IMG/VR virus record: IMGVR_UViG_3300049893_001162
Span: 1-45,724 of that record
Reading direction: 5' to 3' (one strand)
From: a virus
Length of the DNA: 45,724 bases
Shown here: one piece after another, positions 3,614 through 43,800 of the stretch
Position numbering within the stretch: the stretch's first letter is position 1
How the letters are laid out: every line of letters starts with the position of its first letter
The notes under the pieces: model-generated
Told to the model about the DNA's origin: nothing
Databases searched by the model: none
What the model saw: the letters and a program-made list of their open reading frames with translations, nothing else
Program-made: the position numbers and the translations under genes

Positions 3614-3946
3614 TTATTTCCCCACTTGATGATGCTTGTAATTATCTCGCTCTAGGTTAGTTATTCTTCCCTCTAGCTCTAGTATCTTCTTATCTCTTAC
3701 ATCAAAATCTCTACGTGCGTCAGCGGCTCTATACCTATCATCGGAAGCTGAAGAAAGTTGAACTTGCAGTGTCTGTACTGTAGCATTTACATTCGTCAGC
3801 ACAGCCTCTGAGCGTGTAATTCTATCTCGCATGTCTATGATTGTAGTTCCAGCCCACAGAAGCAATGCAAGACACACGGCCACAACAATTGTCTGAATGT
3901 GTTTTTCCACGTCAGTTTTTCGTCGGTCGTGCTGAAAGTTAGCCAT
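3614..3946 (-). CDS. Single-TM coiled-coil protein, possible i-spanin, 110 aa
   Basis: The protein has a short basic N-terminus, one transmembrane helix at about residues 18-36 (TIVVAVCLALLLWAG), and then a long charged, heptad-like helix to the end. This N-in/C-out layout resembles Rz-type inner-membrane spanins but also other small phage membrane proteins; no partner o-spanin lipoprotein was found. ATG 3946 is preferred over the in-frame TTG at 3949 because GAGGA is correctly spaced from it. The ribosome-binding site is part of a possible pseudoknot (3948-3990), so this gene may be translationally controlled. Confidence 0.5.
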   Translation of the reverse strand: MANFQHDRRKTDVEKHIQTIVVAVCLALLLWAGTTIIDMRDRITRSEAVLTNVNATVQTLQVQLSSASDDRYRAADARRDFDVRDKKILELEGRITNLERDNYKHHQVGK

Positions 3947-3947
3947 C

Positions 3948-3990
3948 AAAGTCCTCTTTACAGGTACAGCGAATAAGGACTTTTACCTGT
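3948..3990 (-). promoter_or_regulatory. Possible H-type RNA pseudoknot over the RBS of the 3614-3946 gene
   Basis: Read on the minus strand, ACAGGTA (3990-3984) can pair with TACCTGT (3966-3960), and AAAGTCC (3983-3977) with GGACTTT (3954-3948). The four arms interleave 1-2-1'-2', which is pseudoknot topology with two perfect 7-bp stems. The GGA of the second 3' arm is part of the GAGGA Shine-Dalgarno for ATG 3946, so folding would hide it. The complementarity is seen directly; the regulatory role is inferred. Confidence 0.45.
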
Positions 3991-17097: not shown

Positions 17098-17116
17098 ACT
17101 CATGGAAGGAATGGAA

Positions 17117-17818
17117 ATGACGCAAAGCAATAGCAACATCACTGCGGCCGGTGGCAACCTGGAAGCTGCCAGCCAGTTTGTGAAACTCTCCGCCCTCAAA
17201 AATAAGACGGTGGAAGGTGGCAAGCTGGCGCTCCGCATCATCAGCAAGGAGCGCACGGGAGAAGATGGGAAGAAATCACGAGACTTGCCGGAGTCTCTGG
17301 CACTCGTGATTCCTGATGATCTTGCACCGCTGTCGGAATGCTTCAAGTTTCCGGCAATTGCACAGTATCTGTATGATGCCGTGCATGAGGTGCAAGCCAG
17401 AATTGCCAAAGCAGCGGCAATGCGAGGTGAGGCTACTGTGTGGCATGTGCAATTGATGCCGCAGAAGCTTGAGGAGTTTCTCGTTGCCAGCAATGAAACG
17501 CTCGGCAGGCTTACACTGGCAGAAATCGCCGGCATTGTGGCTGGAAACTGGGAAATCGTGAAGGCAGCATATGAGACTGCTACGGAAAAACAGATTCCAG
17601 CAGACAAAATGCAGCAAGCGCAAAACTTCTGCCGCGGAATTCTGGAAAAACTCTGCGATGGCGCACCGATGCTGGCGAATGAGAAGCAAGAAACTTTCGC
17701 TCAGTTGGTTGCGGAGAGTGTGAGCGGAGAAATCGCAACAAAGCTGCAAAACAAGGTTGCAAAAGCTTTGGAGAATCGCAAAGTGATGCTTGCAGCTGCG
17801 GACGATCTCGGAATGTAG
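17117..17818 (+). CDS. First early-unit protein, unknown function, 233 aa
   Basis: A soluble, mainly helical, Ala/Glu/Lys-rich protein beginning MTQSNSNITAAGG. It is the first gene behind the boxA leader and is followed immediately by a strong terminator, so it forms its own transcript or regulates what lies beyond. Codon use (CTG, CGC, GCG) is richer in G/C-ending codons than in its neighbours, indicating strong expression. ATG 17117 is chosen over 17102 and 17111 because AAGGA is spaced seven bases from it. The layout (beta start, YLYDAVHEVQARI helix, long helical tail) weakly resembles the protein at 24331-24975; the two may be paralogues. No function can be assigned. Confidence 0.75.
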   Translation: MTQSNSNITAAGGNLEAASQFVKLSALKNKTVEGGKLALRIISKERTGEDGKKSRDLPESLALVIPDDLAPLSECFKFPAIAQYLYDAVHEVQARIAKAAAMRGEATVWHVQLMPQKLEEFLVASNETLGRLTLAEIAGIVAGNWEIVKAAYETATEKQIPADKMQQAQNFCRGILEKLCDGAPMLANEKQETFAQLVAESVSGEIATKLQNKVAKALENRKVMLAAADDLGM

Positions 17819-17835
17819 CACGCAGTGCTAGTTAG

Positions 17836-17885
17836 CACCCTCACAGTTTGCTGAGAAATCAGTAAATTGTGAGGGTGTTTTTATT
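17836..17885 (+). terminator. Strong intrinsic terminator after the first early gene
   Basis: CACCCTCACAGTTTGCTGA (17836-17854) pairs along its whole 19 bases (two G-U pairs) with the arm ending at 17877, closed by a GAAA tetraloop, and is followed by TTTTTATTT. There is no T-run on the other strand. Passage beyond it would require antitermination or a new promoter. Confidence 0.9.
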
Positions 17886-17905
17886 TGTATGCTGCATTGC
17901 CGCAT

Positions 17906-17941
17906 GTCAATATTGACGTTTTGACGTTTTGACGTTTTGAC
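17906..17941 (+). repeat. Iteron array A: palindrome plus three GTTTTGAC 8-mers
   Basis: The 12-bp palindrome GTCAATATTGAC (17906-17917) is followed by three exact tandem copies of GTTTTGAC (17918-17941). The last copy runs into TTGACAGC, the same octamer found at the -35 boxes of the two clear early promoters. The 8-bp spacing is the same as in array B, which lies 300 bp away in mirror orientation. Confidence 0.85.
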
Positions 17942-18011
17942 AGCGGCCCCCTTGCCCCATACCTCCGGGCACCCTCTCTGTTATTTTCTACCTTCTAGAG
18001 AGTTTCTCAAC

Positions 18012-18043
18012 TCCTCCTTACTTACTCAAATCCTCCTTACTTA
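18012..18043. repeat. 13-bp direct repeat in the non-coding region
   Basis: TCCTCCTTACTTA occurs at 18012-18024 and again at 18031-18043 (19-base period). Its reverse complement reads TAAGTAAGGAGGA, containing a Shine-Dalgarno-like AGGAGG, but no minus-strand gene follows. The role is unknown. Confidence 0.7.
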
Positions 18044-18133
18044 AAATGTTTTTCTTAAAAGTGTTATTTTTTTAGTAGGGGGGGCCGATATACTGAGGGG
18101 ACGCTAAGATGCAAGATGGTAATTACACATTGC

Positions 18134-18180
18134 CTTACTTATGCACTCTTATGGGAGTTAGCTGAGAGTGCATAAGTAAG
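18134..18180. repeat. Long hairpin with 16-bp perfect stem
   Basis: CTTACTTATGCACTCT (18134-18149) and AGAGTGCATAAGTAAG (18165-18180) are perfectly complementary with a 15-base loop. Two shorter hairpins follow: CGGC-tgt-GCCG (18181-18191) and GCAC-cagaa-GTGC (18198-18210). There is no T-run, so this is not a simple terminator. It lies between the two iteron arrays and could be an origin dyad or an RNase III site. Confidence 0.7.
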
Positions 18181-18232
18181 CGGCTGTGCCGCAGTAAGCA
18201 CCAGAAGTGCCCCGTTGACACCCAAAGGGGGG

Positions 18233-18271
18233 CATGTCAACATGTCAATCCGTCAACATGTCAACATTGAC
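18233..18271 (+). repeat. Iteron array B: four GTCAA 8-mers plus near-palindrome
   Basis: Four tandem 8-mers read CATGTCAA, CATGTCAA, TCCGTCAA, CATGTCAA (18233-18264). The last overlaps GTCAACATTGAC (18260-18271), which differs from the array A palindrome at one base. The order is the mirror image of array A. A further GTTGACA lies at 18214-18220. Confidence 0.85.
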
Positions 18272-18311
18272 GCGCGGCCTCGCCGCAAATCTTTTTTTGG
18301 AGTCTGAAACA

Positions 18312-18590
18312 ATGAAAACCACGAAAGTAGTTACTTGTGTTCCTTCTGCAGAAGCAGAAAGAATTGATGAATTGCAGAAAAAAGAAGAAAAGCAGTTCTT
18401 GAAAAACACAAAGATTTCTCTTATTAGTCTTTATCATTTCCTACCAAAACAAGAATTTTCAGCTCTCTGTGAACAACTCTCAGAAAGAAAAAACTATGAA
18501 ATCATTTTGCTAGACCTCAAGCTAGAAAGAGCAAAAGCGGAAAAAGAAATTCTAGATCGCCTAGCCTTTCGTAACAGCGGACTTAAATAA
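18312..18590 (+). CDS. Small charged early protein, 92 aa
   Basis: A Lys/Glu-rich helical protein (MKTTKVVTCVPSAEAERIDE at the N-terminus, a K/E-rich helix around residues 22-35, and a Leu/Lys-rich C-terminus). ATG 18312 is preferred over an upstream in-frame ATG at 18234 because GGAG lies nine bases before it and the longer frame would run through the iteron array. It is the first gene after the candidate origin. No family was recognised. Confidence 0.65.
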   Translation: MKTTKVVTCVPSAEAERIDELQKKEEKQFLKNTKISLISLYHFLPKQEFSALCEQLSERKNYEIILLDLKLERAKAEKEILDRLAFRNSGLK

Positions 18591-19577: not shown

Positions 19578-19654
19578 GGCCCGTTAGCTTAATTGGTTAG
19601 AGCAGAGGACTCATAATCCTTTGGTTATAGGTTCGAATCCTATACGGGCTACCA
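19578..19654 (+). tRNA. tRNA with CAT anticodon (probably Ile-CAU, AUA-decoding; Met possible)
   Basis: A 77-base cloverleaf with acceptor GGCCCGT/ACGGGCT, an anticodon arm AGGA-CTCATAA-TCCT, a normal T arm (GGTTCGAATCC) and an encoded CCA end. The anticodon is CAT. Overall similarity to bacterial tRNA-Ile2, whose C34 is changed to lysidine to read AUA, is greater than to elongator tRNA-Met, and the phage's AT-rich genes use AUA often. The amino-acid identity is therefore an inference. Confidence 0.9.
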
Positions 19655-19665
19655 CTTTTTTACTT

Positions 19666-19751
19666 CCACCTATGGTGAAATCGGTAGACACAGCAGACTT
19701 AAAATCTGCCGCTCTTAGAGCATGCCAGTTCAAATCTGGCTAGGTGGACCA
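19666..19751 (+). tRNA. tRNA-Leu (TAA anticodon)
   Basis: An 86-base class II tRNA with acceptor CCACCTA/TAGGTGG, an anticodon arm GCAGA-CTTAAAA-TCTGC (anticodon TAA), a long variable arm (CGCTCTTAGAGC), a T arm (GCCAGTTCAAATCTGGC) and an encoded ACCA end. It reads UUA (and UUG), common leucine codons in the AT-rich phage genes. It lies 11 bases after the CAT tRNA and is probably cotranscribed. Confidence 0.93.
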
Positions 19752-19783: not shown

Positions 19784-19963
19784 ATGAAAACCACTTGGCA
19801 AAAGATTTATTCCTTCTTCGGATTCTGGACTTACTATTCTCCATATTACAATGATCCAGAATACATATGGGAAAGAACTCTCTACTGGGTATGTCCAAAA
19901 TGGATGAGAAGTTTCTGGTACTGTAAGATAGATATTGTCTCTTGGAAAGTAAAGAACTTTTAA
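19784..19963 (+). CDS. 59-aa aromatic-rich small protein
   Basis: A short frame directly after the tRNA-Leu, with GGAG seven bases before ATG 19784. It is exceptionally rich in Trp, Tyr and Phe (for example SFFGFWTYYSPYYNDPEY and RSFWYC), which could mean membrane or interface association, though there is no clean transmembrane helix. It fills the gap between the tRNAs and the next gene. Unknown function. Confidence 0.5.
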   Translation: MKTTWQKIYSFFGFWTYYSPYYNDPEYIWERTLYWVCPKWMRSFWYCKIDIVSWKVKNF

Positions 19964-19995
19964 ATAATCCTTCACATCTCTGGAGTCTACCCGCT

Positions 19996-21039
19996 ATGAG
20001 AATCCTTTGTGCATATTCTGGCATAGAATTCAACTGTGATCACATGCCAGGATTTCTTTCTTCTCGTGAAGCTTTCCATCCTGTATTTTCGCTCCCTCCA
20101 CATAAGATACTTTCATACAGTGGAAAATGGGCAGCTTCTCAACTCACAGCCACCGATAGTTATTTGCTGTTTCTTGCAGGACTCCACAGCACAGAACTTC
20201 TAGAATGGAGAGTTCCTGTTGCACGTAGCGCACGCACTGATGCAATAGTTGCTCAGAATATGAAGCGACTATTTAGCGTACTTAGTAAGCTAGACGTAAT
20301 TAAAAATCCTAGCTTCGCTACTCCTCGCTACGTAATTTCTCAAGAGACTCGCTCACTTGAAAATGTACGTTATTGGATTGATGCATGGCTAGAAAGCTAT
20401 GAAGATTTTCAAGAAGGATATAAGAGCGTAAGTCTAAACCAGCAGATTCTTCGTAAAGAGCGTGCTCTTGAGCGTCTAATTAAAAATAGCTATCGCAGCA
20501 CTCTCAGTTATGCAGGAATTCTAGCAGATTGGGCAGCTCTAGCTGGTGAGTTTCCAACATTTGCAACTTCTGTACTGGATCCTCTCACAAAGCAACCTCT
20601 CACCTGTTCACAATACTGGAAATCTCTTATCATACAGTGTGGTAAGAGAGAGGCTCTGTGGAAAGTAAATGAAAAGGATCTGCAGGAACTCATAGAGCAT
20701 TGTGAACTCAACATAGAGGCAGGTACGATTTACAGTCATGAACTAATGACTTATCTTCGTACTGCATACCAGGAAATTACTAATCCTCTAGGTTTCGGTG
20801 CTCCAGGACTTAAAGGAACTCCATTTACTCTTCTTGATTCTGAAAATGCTAGTGTTGAAACTGCAAATCTCTTGGCAATAGTCGATAGTGCTCCTACTGA
20901 GGAACCACGCATAGAAAATTATCCTACAAAACTAGCATATCTCAAGGCAAAGATGGCTTATGGACTCGCACTCAAGCAACGCACAGACTCAACTAGCATT
21001 AGCAAAACTGTGCAGAGCAATGATAAATATGACATTTGA
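19996..21039 (+). CDS. Unknown early protein, 347 aa
   Basis: A medium-sized protein starting MRILCAYSGIEFNCDHMPGF, with the look of a soluble alpha-helical protein (many Leu/Glu/Arg helices around residues 85-270). ATG 19996 is preferred over an in-frame TTG start at 19942 because GGAG is placed ten bases upstream and the upstream small gene would otherwise be overlapped. No catalytic motif is evident. Its place at the start of a cluster leading to helicase suggests a DNA-metabolism link, but this is positional only. Confidence 0.65.
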   Translation: MRILCAYSGIEFNCDHMPGFLSSREAFHPVFSLPPHKILSYSGKWAASQLTATDSYLLFLAGLHSTELLEWRVPVARSARTDAIVAQNMKRLFSVLSKLDVIKNPSFATPRYVISQETRSLENVRYWIDAWLESYEDFQEGYKSVSLNQQILRKERALERLIKNSYRSTLSYAGILADWAALAGEFPTFATSVLDPLTKQPLTCSQYWKSLIIQCGKREALWKVNEKDLQELIEHCELNIEAGTIYSHELMTYLRTAYQEITNPLGFGAPGLKGTPFTLLDSENASVETANLLAIVDSAPTEEPRIENYPTKLAYLKAKMAYGLALKQRTDSTSISKTVQSNDKYDI

Positions 21040-24330: not shown

Positions 24331-24975
24331 ATGAATGCACCTGTTGAAGCTCCGGTCGCAACTGTTGTTGATGTTGTCCCTGTTAAATTCCACTTCAAGA
24401 CTAAGGAAGATGAAGTCACGAAACAAAAGACTCGTCGTCCTACGGTGGAACTGAAACTTCCGCTTGTTAATCTGAACGGCATTATCGAAATCATCAACAG
24501 CGGCGATGAGAAAATGATCACGCTAATGGTGGATTCGCTGCGTGAAGTGCAAGTTGGTCAAGCACGTAACGTGGTGAATGAGAAAGAAGATATCACGCAA
24601 GATAACTTCCCTCTCGATACTGTTGATTGGAAAGCAATTGCGTATCTGCCGCCTGCGCAACGTCGCGGTGCTGGTATTCCGAAAGAGCAATTCGACGAAT
24701 TTGCGAAAGACTATATCTCGGTTATGCCTGCTGTTACTGGTAAGACTGAGAAGCAAGTTGCGAATGCTGCTTTCTTCTTCCAGCAAAAACTGAATCCGCT
24801 GAAAGCGCATCCGGAAAAAGACAAGCATCTCTCGAAACTGAAAGAACAGCTTGCTCTGTACGCTGGCAATTCTGCCCGTGCTGAGGAATTCACCGATGTT
24901 ATCGAATTCCTGAACGATAAAGCAGATGCGCTCATTAAAGCAGATAGCATCAATGACGCTCTGCAGAACATGTAA
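24331..24975 (+). CDS. Highly expressed early protein of unknown function, 214 aa
   Basis: A soluble protein with a Val/Pro/Ala-rich N-terminus, a beta-strand pair (RPTVELKLPLVN, about 36-47), a helix (DEKMITLMVDSLREVQVGQA) and a long helical C-terminal half. Codons are conspicuously G/C-ending (CTG, CGT, GCG), as in the capsid gene and genes 17117 and 28560, and a near-consensus promoter lies upstream. A structured non-coding RNA region follows it. It may be a distant paralogue of the 17117 protein. ATG 24331 has AGGAGA upstream. No family was recognised. Confidence 0.75.
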   Translation: MNAPVEAPVATVVDVVPVKFHFKTKEDEVTKQKTRRPTVELKLPLVNLNGIIEIINSGDEKMITLMVDSLREVQVGQARNVVNEKEDITQDNFPLDTVDWKAIAYLPPAQRRGAGIPKEQFDEFAKDYISVMPAVTGKTEKQVANAAFFFQQKLNPLKAHPEKDKHLSKLKEQLALYAGNSARAEEFTDVIEFLNDKADALIKADSINDALQNM

Positions 24976-33048: not shown

Positions 33049-34287
33049 GTGCGGGATTTTTTTGACTCCTATCTGCACTATGTGCAAAACACAGAACCTC
33101 CAGCTTTCTTCCATCGCTGGAGTATGATTGCGTCTATAGGAGCGTTACTGGAACGACAATATTTCTTTCAACATGGACATTTTGAAATCAATCCCAATAT
33201 CTATTGCATGCTCATTGGCGTTCCTGGTACACGAAAATCAACCGCAATCAAACTAGCAACTCGTACATTAAAGGCAGCGGGCTATGCAACCTTTGCAGCA
33301 GAGAAAACTTCAAAGGAAAAGTTTATTCTTGACTTGGCTGAAGGACATGCTAATGGAGAGGACATCCTTAACGAGAGTTTATTTGGCCCAGACCCTACTT
33401 CCTGTACTCCATGTTTTATTGCTGCTGACGAATTCAATGACTTTTTTGGTAACAATAATCTTGAATTTATTTCTCTATTGGGTAGTCTCTGGGACTACAC
33501 TGGATCCTATGAATCACGTCTTAAGAACTCAAAGAGTGTGGTTATTCATAATCCTACCATATCTATTCTTGGTGGTAACACTCCTACTGCTTTTTCCATT
33601 GCCTTCCCACCTGAGTCTCTAGGACAAGGATTCTTCTCTCGTCTGCTTCTTGTGTATAGTGATCCAAGTGGAAAGAAGTTTACGTTTCCAAAAGTACCTC
33701 ATGCATCGGAGACAGCAGCAGTAGTGGCTTCTTTGCAGCGTATAAAGTTACAGGCAGTAGGTAATGCAGTACTAACTCCTGGAGCGGAGAGTCTATTAGA
33801 TAGGATTTATAAAAGCGATCAGGAGCTTACGGATGTACGATTTGCAAGCTATTCCACGAGAAGATTTACCCACTTACTTAAACTCTCTCTTATTCAGAGC
33901 GCTGCCGCATTCGCAAATAAAATTGACGAGACAGCAATTATTAGAGCTAATACAGTGCTTCACTTCACAGAGCGTTTTATGCCCAAAGCTCTTGGAGAAT
34001 TTGGAAAAAGTAGACACAGTGACACTACACATAAAGTAATCTCGTATATTGAGAATAGCTATAAGGTAGTAACATTTGCAGAGCTCTGGAAGCAAGTGCA
34101 TAATGATTTGGAAAGAATGTCTGATCTGCAGACGATCATACAGAATCTTCTAGCAGCAGACAGAATTCAGCCAGTGAACAAACCAATAAATGGATGGCTT
34201 GCTAAGAGAGCAATGGTAAGACAACCTGCCAGCGATACAGTGGATTGGGATTACTTAAGCGAGGAAGAAAGGAAGATGGAACTATGA
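33049..34287 (+). CDS. DUF3987/D5-like ATPase, probable replicative helicase-type, 412 aa
   Basis: A P-loop ATPase: Walker A GVPGTRKST (57-65) and Walker B CFIAADEFNDFF (about 122-133). The preceding region (FFHRWSMIASIGALLERQYF) and the later ILGGNTPTAFSIAFPPESLG-type and GFFSRLLLVYS (about 195-220) segments match phage/plasmid DUF3987-like proteins, which are related to D5-type primase/helicases. A primase domain is not apparent, so it may be the helicase half. The start is GTG 33049, chosen because GAGGAG precedes it and ATG codons lie well inside the conserved part. It overlaps the endolysin start by ATGA. Confidence 0.75.
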   Translation: MRDFFDSYLHYVQNTEPPAFFHRWSMIASIGALLERQYFFQHGHFEINPNIYCMLIGVPGTRKSTAIKLATRTLKAAGYATFAAEKTSKEKFILDLAEGHANGEDILNESLFGPDPTSCTPCFIAADEFNDFFGNNNLEFISLLGSLWDYTGSYESRLKNSKSVVIHNPTISILGGNTPTAFSIAFPPESLGQGFFSRLLLVYSDPSGKKFTFPKVPHASETAAVVASLQRIKLQAVGNAVLTPGAESLLDRIYKSDQELTDVRFASYSTRRFTHLLKLSLIQSAAAFANKIDETAIIRANTVLHFTERFMPKALGEFGKSRHSDTTHKVISYIENSYKVVTFAELWKQVHNDLERMSDLQTIIQNLLAADRIQPVNKPINGWLAKRAMVRQPASDTVDWDYLSEEERKMEL

Positions 34288-34769
34288 GCACAGAACAGCG
34301 ACCAATAGAATTTCATAAAGTAATGCAATTTATCTTACGTCCTGATATTGAAGGAGGTTACAGTAATCACCCTAAAGATCCAGGCGGTGCCACTAACTAT
34401 GGAATTACACAGCGTACATATGATTACTGGAGAGAGAAGCATGGTTTGGAGAAGCAGCCAGTAAGCAATTGTACTAAACTGGAGGCTCTAGATATTTACT
34501 GGGAAGAGTACTGGAAGCAAGAGTGGGAAAATTTAGAATTCGGAATTGCTGCTGTTCTCATGGATACGGCAGTGAACATGGGACCTACAGCTGCTGCAAG
34601 ACTTTATAAGCAAGGTAATGGAACAGTAAAAGAAATACTTGAAGCACGCAGAAAGCTATACAGAAAGATTGTAGAAGTACGGCCTACTAGTAGTGTGTTT
34701 ATGAGAGGCTGGATGGCAAGAGTTGATAAACTGCAGGAGTTTGTAGATGCAAACAAAAACATTGGTTAA
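34284..34769 (+). CDS. Endolysin, GH108-type N-acetylmuramidase, 161 aa
   Basis: The signature EGGYSNHPKDPGGATNYGIT (23-42) is diagnostic of glycosyl hydrolase family 108 phage lysozymes, with E23 the likely catalytic acid. The rest includes WREKHG, an AAVLMDTAVNMGPTAAARL helix of the peptidoglycan-binding (PG_binding_3) half and a normal C-terminus. No signal peptide or membrane anchor is seen, so export needs a holin. ATG 34284 is preferred over an in-frame TTG at 34245 because of GGAAG upstream and the ATGA overlap. It is unusual that it lies in the early/middle unit rather than next to the holin candidate. Confidence 0.88.
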   Translation: MSTEQRPIEFHKVMQFILRPDIEGGYSNHPKDPGGATNYGITQRTYDYWREKHGLEKQPVSNCTKLEALDIYWEEYWKQEWENLEFGIAAVLMDTAVNMGPTAAARLYKQGNGTVKEILEARRKLYRKIVEVRPTSSVFMRGWMARVDKLQEFVDANKNIG

Positions 34770-35586
34770 TGTTCTAGATCACGGCTATGTTCGTTTAGTT
34801 TCCAGTATGGGAGATGATCTTTCTATTGTACGAGCTGCTAGAGTTTCGTATGATGCAGACTGGCGTACTGGAGAAGATGCAGGAAAAGATGAGAAGTTAC
34901 TTGCATACCTGCTACGTAACAGGCACACCAGTCCATTTGAATCTGTAGTTTTTACTTTTGAAATCAAAGCTCCTATCTTTGTAGTTCGCCAATGGCACAG
35001 GCATAGGACTTGGGCATATAATGAAGTGAGTGCTAGATATACGGAATTGCCGGAAGAGTTTTATGTTCCGGAAGTGTCGCAGATTACTACACAAAGCAAT
35101 AGCAATAAACAAATGAGAAGCTTTCAAGTTATTGATGAGCCCGAAGCTGCTATCAATATGATGAGAGCTCTTAATGAGCGTGCATTTGATATATACAAAA
35201 GTTTTATTGCTGCAGGAATGGCAAGAGAACTAGCTCGCACAGTTCTTCCTCTTGCTACCTATACTCGATTCTTCGGAACTGTAAATCTTCATAACCTTCT
35301 TCATTTCCTGTCTCTGCGACTGCATGAGCATGCACAATATGAAATCCGAGTTTACGCAGAAGCAATTCGAGAACTCATCAGAACTGTCGTCCCAATCACA
35401 ATCCAGCATTGGGAAGAAATACAAGCGCAGTCTGGAAAGCAAGATAAGAAAACAGAAAAAAGCTCGAATAGCGAGCGGACTACTATTCAAGCCACCACAG
35501 AGTGTGCACATGTTTGGTCCACAAGCTACGATGGAGCGAAAAAATGTCAACAGTGTGGTACTTTCATTCCTCCAGCATTTACCTGA
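34747..35586 (+). CDS. thyX: Flavin-dependent thymidylate synthase with Zn-ribbon-like tail, 279 aa
   Basis: Converts dUMP to dTMP using FAD. The ThyX signature RHR-x7-S-x-R is present (RHRTWAYNEVSAR, 85-97), with HTSPFE (60-65) and the C-terminal substrate-binding segment ALYP-like region. The family usually ends near residue 230; here a hydrophilic linker (QDKKTEKSSNSERTT) is followed by C253-x-H255 and C267-x2-C270 (KCQQCG), a possible zinc-binding ribbon. It begins 23 bases before the endolysin stop, with AGGAG upstream. The extension is atypical. Confidence 0.88.
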   Translation: MQTKTLVNVLDHGYVRLVSSMGDDLSIVRAARVSYDADWRTGEDAGKDEKLLAYLLRNRHTSPFESVVFTFEIKAPIFVVRQWHRHRTWAYNEVSARYTELPEEFYVPEVSQITTQSNSNKQMRSFQVIDEPEAAINMMRALNERAFDIYKSFIAAGMARELARTVLPLATYTRFFGTVNLHNLLHFLSLRLHEHAQYEIRVYAEAIRELIRTVVPITIQHWEEIQAQSGKQDKKTEKSSNSERTTIQATTECAHVWSTSYDGAKKCQQCGTFIPPAFT

Positions 35587-40816: not shown

Positions 40817-43800
40817 TACTGATAACTCCTTCCATCTGCGTAAGGTTCGCTTCCCATAAGAAGCTGCATTTGTTGCGAGGTCGGTGACTTAAGATTTTCT
40901 GCAATTCTATTTACCTGTGACTCTTTTGCATTTTTTACTTGCTCCATCATCCACTTATTAAAATTCCTTCCATCACCGCCACGCTCAGTATACGCTTTAG
41001 CGAAGTTTTCAATCTGCTGGGGATTGGGCATCTCACCATCTATAGTGACTGTCTTAAATGCTTCACCAAGCGCAAGTCTTTTACGACGATCATAAGCAGC
41101 ATAACCAAGGAATCTATGCATTGCGTCTATGAGTCGTGCCTCATCAAATGGCTTACCTCCACTCAGACGTATTAGACTGGAGTAGGAAAAGAGATCATTA
41201 GCACCAAGAATATTTCCACGAGTACTGGTACTGTAAACTGGTCCACCGTCCACTCCACGAAGAACTTGAGAAAGTCCTGCAAGTGGACGATTAATTCCTG
41301 AATGCTCAATTCCTTGAAGTACACTTTCCCAAACTGCACCACCATTGGCAACCTTAGAAAAACTTTCCTGCATACTACCAATGAATTTTCCAAAGACACT
41401 AACAATTGGAATATCTAGTGGATTTACTGGAATTATTGTAGGATGCCGAGGGTTAATATCTCCACGAGTATAGAGATTAGCTCCTAAGACATTACTAGGA
41501 ATCCCATACATGAGGAAATCAGCAGCAGTATTACCAAATACTCCATAAGTCGCAGTATAAAGATCTCTGTGTTGTGTATTTCCAGATGCGGTACCAATAA
41601 TATGCTGATTAATAAAACTAAAACCAGGAAGTCCATTAAGACCGTAAATAGTTCCTTGTAAGCCAAGAAGCATTGCTGCATCTTTTGCACTTCCCTCTCC
41701 TACGTAACGTAAAAGTTGTTGGAGAAGATTGAACTGATAGGTCTGGAAAAGACCAACAGCTTGACCAATGGGTCCTTGGAAAACTAGCGGTCTCTGGCTA
41801 GCAAGAATGTTTCCTTGAGTACGATTTACAAAAGTACGAATATATGTAATTGCTTCATCAGCACTTATAACTCCCACCTGCTCTGCAACATCTGTGATCT
41901 GCTTCATTACATGGGCTGCAACAAAGCGATTCATTTCTTCTGCATGAGAGTTACCAGTCCACTTCTCTCCTAAGTCTCCAAGTTTCTTAGCTGCAGCAAA
42001 TGCTCTGCCCATACGAGCATTAAGATCAGTAACATTCTCGCTTCCACGAAGTGTAAGTTCATCAAGCATCCTGTGATACTGATTAGTGAGATCAGTCACA
42101 TAACCTAGTCGCTTAAATTCATCAAGCAATGCTGGATTTTGAACAGCAGAAATGTAATCTGCATGAGCTTTTGCAATCATTTTCCCAGCAGATTTAAGTT
42201 GTACAGTGGAGCCAGGAATTGGAGTGCTCATAAGTTCTGCCAGCTTTCCTGCAGCTGCAGAATCATTTGCTTCTATTGCTTTAAGCAGTGAACGGGTCTC
42301 TGCTCCAAGCATTACTTGAGAACCCACTGCATTGTTTATTGCATTCAATGGGTCCCAGCGAAGAATTGTAGTTGCGAGTACAGCATTAGCCTCTCGTACA
42401 AATTTACTAAGAGCACCACGAGGAGCAGTGTGATTTGCAGCAATAAGAGACTCAACACTGTCATATGCAGTCTTAAGTCCATATCGCTCCATAGCAGAAT
42501 TTACTGCATTCAAATCATCTACTGTGTAAGTCTTGTTCCAAGCACCACCAACTGCACGAGCTGCTTCACTAAACGCACGATCAATCATGCGATTAGCTGC
42601 ACTCAGCATTGGATACTCTTGAATCTTACTGATATCCAGAGCTGTTTTAATGTAGTTTACATACGGATTTTTTACAATGTTCTCTGCAAATTTTCTATCG
42701 TATGCGTAGCGAGAAAGTGCAATGCCAGTATATTGTTCTCCAAGTTTTTCAAGTTCTGCAAACTCTTTCTCGTATCTCATGCTCACCATGTCGCGAGCAG
42801 CAATATCTTCCTGGCGCAGATGCCAATTCATGAGATCATCTGCAATTTGCTGTGGATCAGTTTTTGGAAGAAATTGACTATTCACACCACGACGTTTAAG
42901 ATTTATATCGATATTACTATTGTGGAGTGTACGCTCGTAATCATACTGACCAATGGCTTTATAGTATTCTTCAGTCTCTCCTTTTGTAACTATTTTGTAT
43001 TCTGAAGGAATACGATTCTTAAGCGCTTCCAGATCTTTAGCTGTAGCCGCATGCACCATGCGTACACGACCACTAGCTTCAGCAGTTACAGTCTCATCTA
43101 CGACAAAGAAGAAATGATTGTAATCTCGTGGATCAGGTTTAGGAACATATACAACATCATGACGAAGAGATTGTTCTAAACCCTGTACTGCTCTACGTTC
43201 CTGTTGCGCAAGAAGTCTTTCACCATTACGCTGTACGTGATTACGAATTACTTCCAGAGTTTCTGGATTAGCAATCTGAATCTGTAGCGGAGCACCTTCC
43301 TGCACAGGTTTGAATTCTATGTTTCTTCCTGCACGTACTGCAGTTTCCCACTCTACTAATCGCTGAGGACGCAGCATACCATCTGGCATGAGAACATAGT
43401 TCTCTGCAGTACTGGCAAGACGTTGAAATATTGCTTGAAGTTCTAAAGCAGCTTCACTGTTTCCTTTAAGCTTAATGAGTGAAGGTTCTATAGTTCCACG
43501 AGCTATATCTCGTAAATTGTTTTTAAGTGCATTAGTGCTGGCTCCAATGCTTTCCATCATGGAAGCAAGAGAGCCATAGTTACCATTAGCAAAAGAAAAT
43601 AGTCCACTACCTGCACCAAAGCGATTGGCACCAAGAATTGCTTGTTCTGGAATATCAAAAAACTGATCAAAGAAAGCACCAAACTGACTTGGAGCAGCAA
43701 GCACGTGATTAACTTGCTGCATGTGCAATTTTTCTTTTGCTTTCAGATAAGCAAGTCCACGTAAGAAGTCACCATTTTCTTTAATAATGTCTTGCTTATA

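Follow-up and report, generated by a model that had tools for sequence, protein, structure and literature searches.

The question raised by this locus is whether two mirror-image arrays of 8-bp repeats lying between the late and the early genes of an uncultured phage form a replication origin, a master control site, or both. The window, that is, the whole stretch of DNA that was analyzed, is a complete virus record of 45.7 kb with a 127-bp overlap between its ends; its late genes run leftward from 16.76 kb and its early and replication genes rightward from 17.1 kb. By protein comparison, the window is a podovirus and distant kin of Fredfastierviridae: identity is ~27-44% between its TerL, portal, polymerase, helicase, and primase and their counterparts in Aeromonas phage P5, Polaromonas phage Tiera, EBPR podovirus 3, and Pseudomonas phage PaMx41. 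All four of these genomes were searched without turning up a comparable array, and the analysis found no cultured member of the window's own clade. PaMx41 (L010) carries 10-bp-period repeats of the type GGTAGRTCAA at ~43361-43410, near the right end of its record and upstream of gp55, which are a possible counterpart of the arrays in Fredfastierviridae.

Array A (17906-17941, plus strand) consists of an inverted GTCAA (17906-17910) followed by four copies of TTGAC at 8-bp spacing (17913, 17921, 17929, and 17937), and contains three exact GTTTTGAC units at 17918, 17926, and 17934, so that the palindrome and the three 8-mers described by the original prediction are indeed present. Array B (18236-18271, plus strand) has four copies of GTCAA at the same spacing (18236, 18244, 18252, and 18260) and ends in an inverted TTGAC (18267-18271). 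Four like 8-mers had been claimed at 18233-18271; the array and its inverted end are there, but the third unit reads TCCGTCAA rather than CATGTCAA. The two arrays are mutually inverted, with 65-nt arms (17890-17954 and 18223-18287) that are 72% complementary, which bears out the proposed common core, 8-bp period, and opposite order and orientation. Arrays A and B are the only period-8 5-mers with at least four copies in the window genome, none of 200 simulated Markov-1 genomes contains any, and the other periods between 5 and 15 give no 5-mer run of at least four copies in the window genome. The units are found nowhere else in this genome, as expected for a single cis-acting site; regularly spaced short repeats unique to one locus are also a property of iteron-type origins.

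The original prediction had suggested aligning related phages to see whether the array is conserved even where the sequence drifts. Scans with the window's X or TerL as single proteins retrieved no relatives, and every contig matched by the exact octamer pattern lacked detectable protein similarity to the window, but profile scans were successful: a TerL profile yielded 80 IMG/VR relatives with 50-77% identity. Period-8 arrays are present upstream of TerL in 22 of 40 loci, and 39 of them lie 1.5-3.2 kb upstream of this gene versus nine in the other 528 kb (8-fold more sequence), and none of the other periods between 5 and 30 shows comparable enrichment there. When the TerL-anchored panel was widened with genomes reached through primase to 95 regions, 25 regions showed inverted period-8 array pairs, compared with 0-5 at other periods and 0 in shuffles. 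A further panel, built around gene Z (19942-21039) and having some contigs in common with the first, contained such pairs in 22 of 65 regions upstream of gene Z versus 0 of 65 downstream controls; because both panels hold related phages and overlapping contigs, these counts should not be treated as independent. In each panel, over half of the regions fail the strict pair test; only some of these were read by eye, and most of those that were read contain degenerate arrays in the same places.

Across phages the two arrays lie ~230-460 bp apart, and their cores include TTGAC, TGACT, GACTG, TAGAC, TGACA, TGCCA, TCCTA, TATCC, and others. Arrays A and B of one phage share a core, as reverse complements, while cores differ between phages, indicating that the two arrays change together. 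The proposed comparison was thus passed, the layout being kept while the core words change. Together, these comparisons show a conserved cis-acting module made up of a promoter, paired inverted 8-bp arrays, and an AT-rich middle. In one relative (L207), both arrays have a 9-bp period (at ~80-115 and 395-425 bp beyond the gene X end at position 3663), and the spacing seems to have changed together in the two.

The promoter component is located at array B, which lies over a promoter of the sigma70 type (TTGACA-17-nAnnnT) directed into the early operon. The -35 box TTGACA (18215-18220, plus strand) is conserved in relatives with a different core word, and the -10 box CAACAT (18238-18243, plus strand), weak and of the extended TG type, follows 17 bp after it and overlaps array B. 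Since TTGACA persists in phages with a TGCCA or TATCC core, comparison identifies the hexamer at 18215 as a -35 box and not as an iteron. With a call requiring at least five of six consensus bases and a -10 candidate 16-18 bp further on, a -35-like hexamer with its -10 candidate was observed at array B in 24 of 25 loci of the TerL panel (one of them, L025, entered manually), and all 22 pairs of the gene Z panel showed TTGAC-N-(16-18)-nAnnnT; the background rate of the promoter pattern is 1.9% of random 90-bp windows from those loci. The array units overlap the spacer and the -10 box in TGCCA-type phages and start several bases past the -10 box in GACTG-type phages. A generic promoter scan did not flag the window promoter, so that the case for it rests on conservation, and array A has no consistent promoter across loci. 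As in operators, the sites of array B overlap the -10 box or the start region of a conserved promoter, and a role as operator on the early promoter is well supported by this comparative evidence.

Further examination of the surroundings confirmed what had been reported there. An intrinsic terminator of gene 17102 (17834-17886, plus strand) ends just before array A, no convincing gene among the window open reading frames overlaps the locus, and no Rfam family was found at it. Between the arrays, the 13-bp direct repeat (18003-18040, spaced 19 bp), the T-rich stretch (near 18060-18076), and the hairpin with perfect 16-bp arms (18134-18180; arms 18134-18149 and 18165-18180) are all present. An AT-rich core followed by a G run (18040-18085) is a candidate unwinding element. 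The best 40 bp between the arrays are 72-93% AT across loci (85% in the window), and in relatives the AT-rich stretch often lies beside a G or C run. AT-rich DNA stands beside the arrays as an unwinding region would, though its presence does not demonstrate melting. Long hairpins with unrelated sequence lie between the arrays in several phages, the window included, and the window's hairpin sequence is not conserved among relatives. In L026, the middle of the inter-array region (~3925-3990) holds a perfect AT palindrome of 30 bp between CCCCACT and AGTGGGG. On the other side of array B, a GC hairpin followed by a T run (18274-18298, plus strand) precedes gene 18312 and is a possible attenuator.

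We also checked strand asymmetry, as had been proposed. The plus-strand GC skew at fourfold sites changes sign across the locus, from positive on the left (+0.13 in X and +0.26 in the TerL region) to mostly negative in the early genes on the right. X and the early genes share one direction of transcription; thus, transcription alone does not explain the sign of its skew. The switch is present, but two caveats attach to it: codon bias of X could give the sign of its skew, and the paralogue at 24331 is also positive though on the early side. The skew switch is suggestive of an origin, and together with the AT-rich core and the position at the early/late divergence it makes an origin role plausible. 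The two halves of the original idea fared differently: the control half is well supported by the placement of array B on a conserved early promoter, whereas the origin half is plausible, with moderate support.

On balance, we regard the locus as probably an early-control site in which a cooperative operator on the early promoter is likely to double as a replication origin. A phage-encoded protein would bind the units side by side at 8 bp per unit, for which MetJ and omega, with 8- and 7-bp repeats, serve as models. It would occupy both arrays, possibly bridging them, and the bound protein would repress or time the early promoter. With less certainty, the same complex may help to melt the AT-rich core, so that the locus would also be a replication origin, and may couple early transcription to replication. 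A rival account, to which we give a real but clearly minor chance, is that the arrays only bind a repressor or timing factor of the early genes, that replication starts elsewhere, and that the AT-rich core and hairpin are nothing more than usual intergenic DNA. Of all conserved associations, the one with the early promoter is indeed the strongest, and lambda-type control regions need no origin. However, array A lies ~300 bp away and has no promoter (a bridging repressor could nevertheless explain it without an origin), and the AT-rich middle recurs in relatives.

Packaging was retained as a rival in view of the contig ends that cluster shortly after gene X. In the pac region of SPP1, DNA is cut between sub-sites; a pac-like site here would have TerS bound to both arrays and the cut made between them, which we consider improbable. 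TerS is the only clear helix-turn-helix protein above the cut-off, with its gene ~1.2 kb away, and the first 520 bp after gene X hold an excess of contig ends (nine versus eight in the next 2.5 kb), possibly as an assembly artefact; moreover, the full-length G044 contig (L181, L197) starts and stops between its arrays. On the other hand, assemblies can break at the microsatellites, G/C runs, and hairpins of the middle, and the exact placement on the early promoter would be left unexplained. TerS was also set aside as the array reader, since changes in its recognition helix do not parallel those in the cores: TPARIS occurs with both TGACA and TGCCA, and the TTGAC core is common to the window (helix TPSAIS) and L030 (STSRIS). 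The excess of contig ends is also seen in several X-anchored contigs and may reflect an assembly barrier or physical genome ends. Neutral tandem repeats produced by slippage in intergenic DNA have very little to recommend them. Octamers of the same word do occur in unrelated contigs, and other microsatellites are found in the same stretch of relatives, but slippage predicts neither recurring inverted pairs that share a core at one period and one position nor a fixed relation to the promoter while the core changes.

The neighboring genes were examined as possible sources of the binding protein. In most loci, gene X (17102-17818, plus strand; its start may be at 17117) has its end immediately ahead of array A, the exceptions being L188, where it is the first early gene on the other side, and L051, where it is inverted; it was not detected in two array-bearing genomes. 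Its product, proposed earlier as a binder, is acidic and belongs to a conserved neighbor of the arrays, but no recognizable DNA-binding fold was found in it, and searches of Pfam, PHROG, and PDB gave no convincing match. A homologue modeled with 55 sequences has a confidently predicted, novel fold (pLDDT 91.7), with no structural match in PDB or BFVD. The window's X is a very divergent family member (16% identity), assigned to the family mainly because of its position and weak similarity. Profile comparison (E about 1e-6) makes the families of X and of the 24331 product distant paralogues; the latter is present in 13 of 13 early regions compared, and a profile search of four distant isolate genomes found neither family, a weak negative. 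Fourfold-site usage in the 24331 gene (24331-24975), whose product has no known domain, resembles that of the major capsid gene, which suggests very high expression.

The 18312 and 18599 products, also put forward as binders, come from the first early genes after array B, which are hypervariable and not conserved in relatives; gene 18312 (18312-18590, plus strand, 92 aa) is the first after the early promoter and occupies such a hypervariable position. The start of its product raised the suspicion of a ribbon-helix-helix (RHH) regulator, but a search for the family was empty and the single-sequence fold had low confidence. RHH (PF01402) had no match in 11 phage genomes versus matches in 10 of 14 control genomes, a search that a divergent or host-encoded RHH protein could escape. 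The conserved neighbors X, Y (18985), and Z have no known domain, and trees of X and TerS do not show which gene travels with the core class. In G018 (33954-34955), gene Z is interrupted by two TAA codons. A more far-reaching proposal, which we regard as doubtful, is that a phage protein without a recognizable DNA-binding fold (the X/24331 family or Z) reads the arrays, that the switching cores are specificity classes comparable to repressor immunity groups, and that the locus serves as origin, operator, and incompatibility site in a non-integrating podovirus clade able to persist as an episome.

Several known systems resemble the locus in part. In plasmid and phage lambda iteron origins, the iterons adjoin an AT-rich segment and lie close to an early promoter and to replication genes, and the same elements stand together here; such origins usually have longer iterons and a recognizable initiator, whereas no initiator was recognized here, the two arrays are inverted, and the core switches between relatives. 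Omega, the ParB of plasmid pSM19035, binds cooperatively to arrays of the 7-bp heptad WATCACW (PMC9499535). Like the present units, heptads are short and non-palindromic, follow one another without gaps in direct or inverted order, and overlap promoters; cooperative binding with gene regulation plus a second role in DNA maintenance would be a further likeness, suggested here by the layout. However, omega is an RHH protein of a plasmid system with 7-bp WATCACW sites, while this is a phage with 8-bp units, changing cores, and no RHH detected. MetJ metboxes are likewise 8-bp units placed at promoters, each bound by one dimer, with at least two needed for repression (PMC3228920), but they are palindromic, follow one consensus, and serve a regulon rather than a single locus with two inverted arrays and cores varying between phages. 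Apl of phage 186, an early-region regulator, binds direct repeats between the major early promoters (PMC7498355). A phage regulator of the early region acting on repeats at early promoters is what we infer here as well; in the case of Apl, the repeats are one helical turn apart and the phage integrates, with Apl serving as its excisionase too, while no integrated copy was seen for the present clade.

With regard to lifestyle, no relatives with obvious host flanks were found among bacterial genomes, and the four relatives that turned up in bacterial assemblies are MAG-labeled contigs of 42-55 kb with no sign of integration, as judged from size alone. Shea, a distant relative within Fredfastierviridae, is reported to be an episomal pseudolysogen without known lysogeny genes (PMC13348215), and an operator/origin of the present kind would make such non-integrating persistence testable. 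These lifestyle observations give context and do not count as evidence on the locus itself. The locus marks the likely early switch of the clade, and its arrays could be used as bait for finding the regulator. A fixed layout with drifting cores in many uncultured podoviruses is also a natural experiment, one that shows how a DNA-binding protein and its sites evolve together. Elsewhere in the early region, the window carries genes for tRNA-Met (CAT) and tRNA-Leu (TAA) at 19578-19751, and the same two tRNA types (Met and Leu) are present in EBPR podovirus 3.
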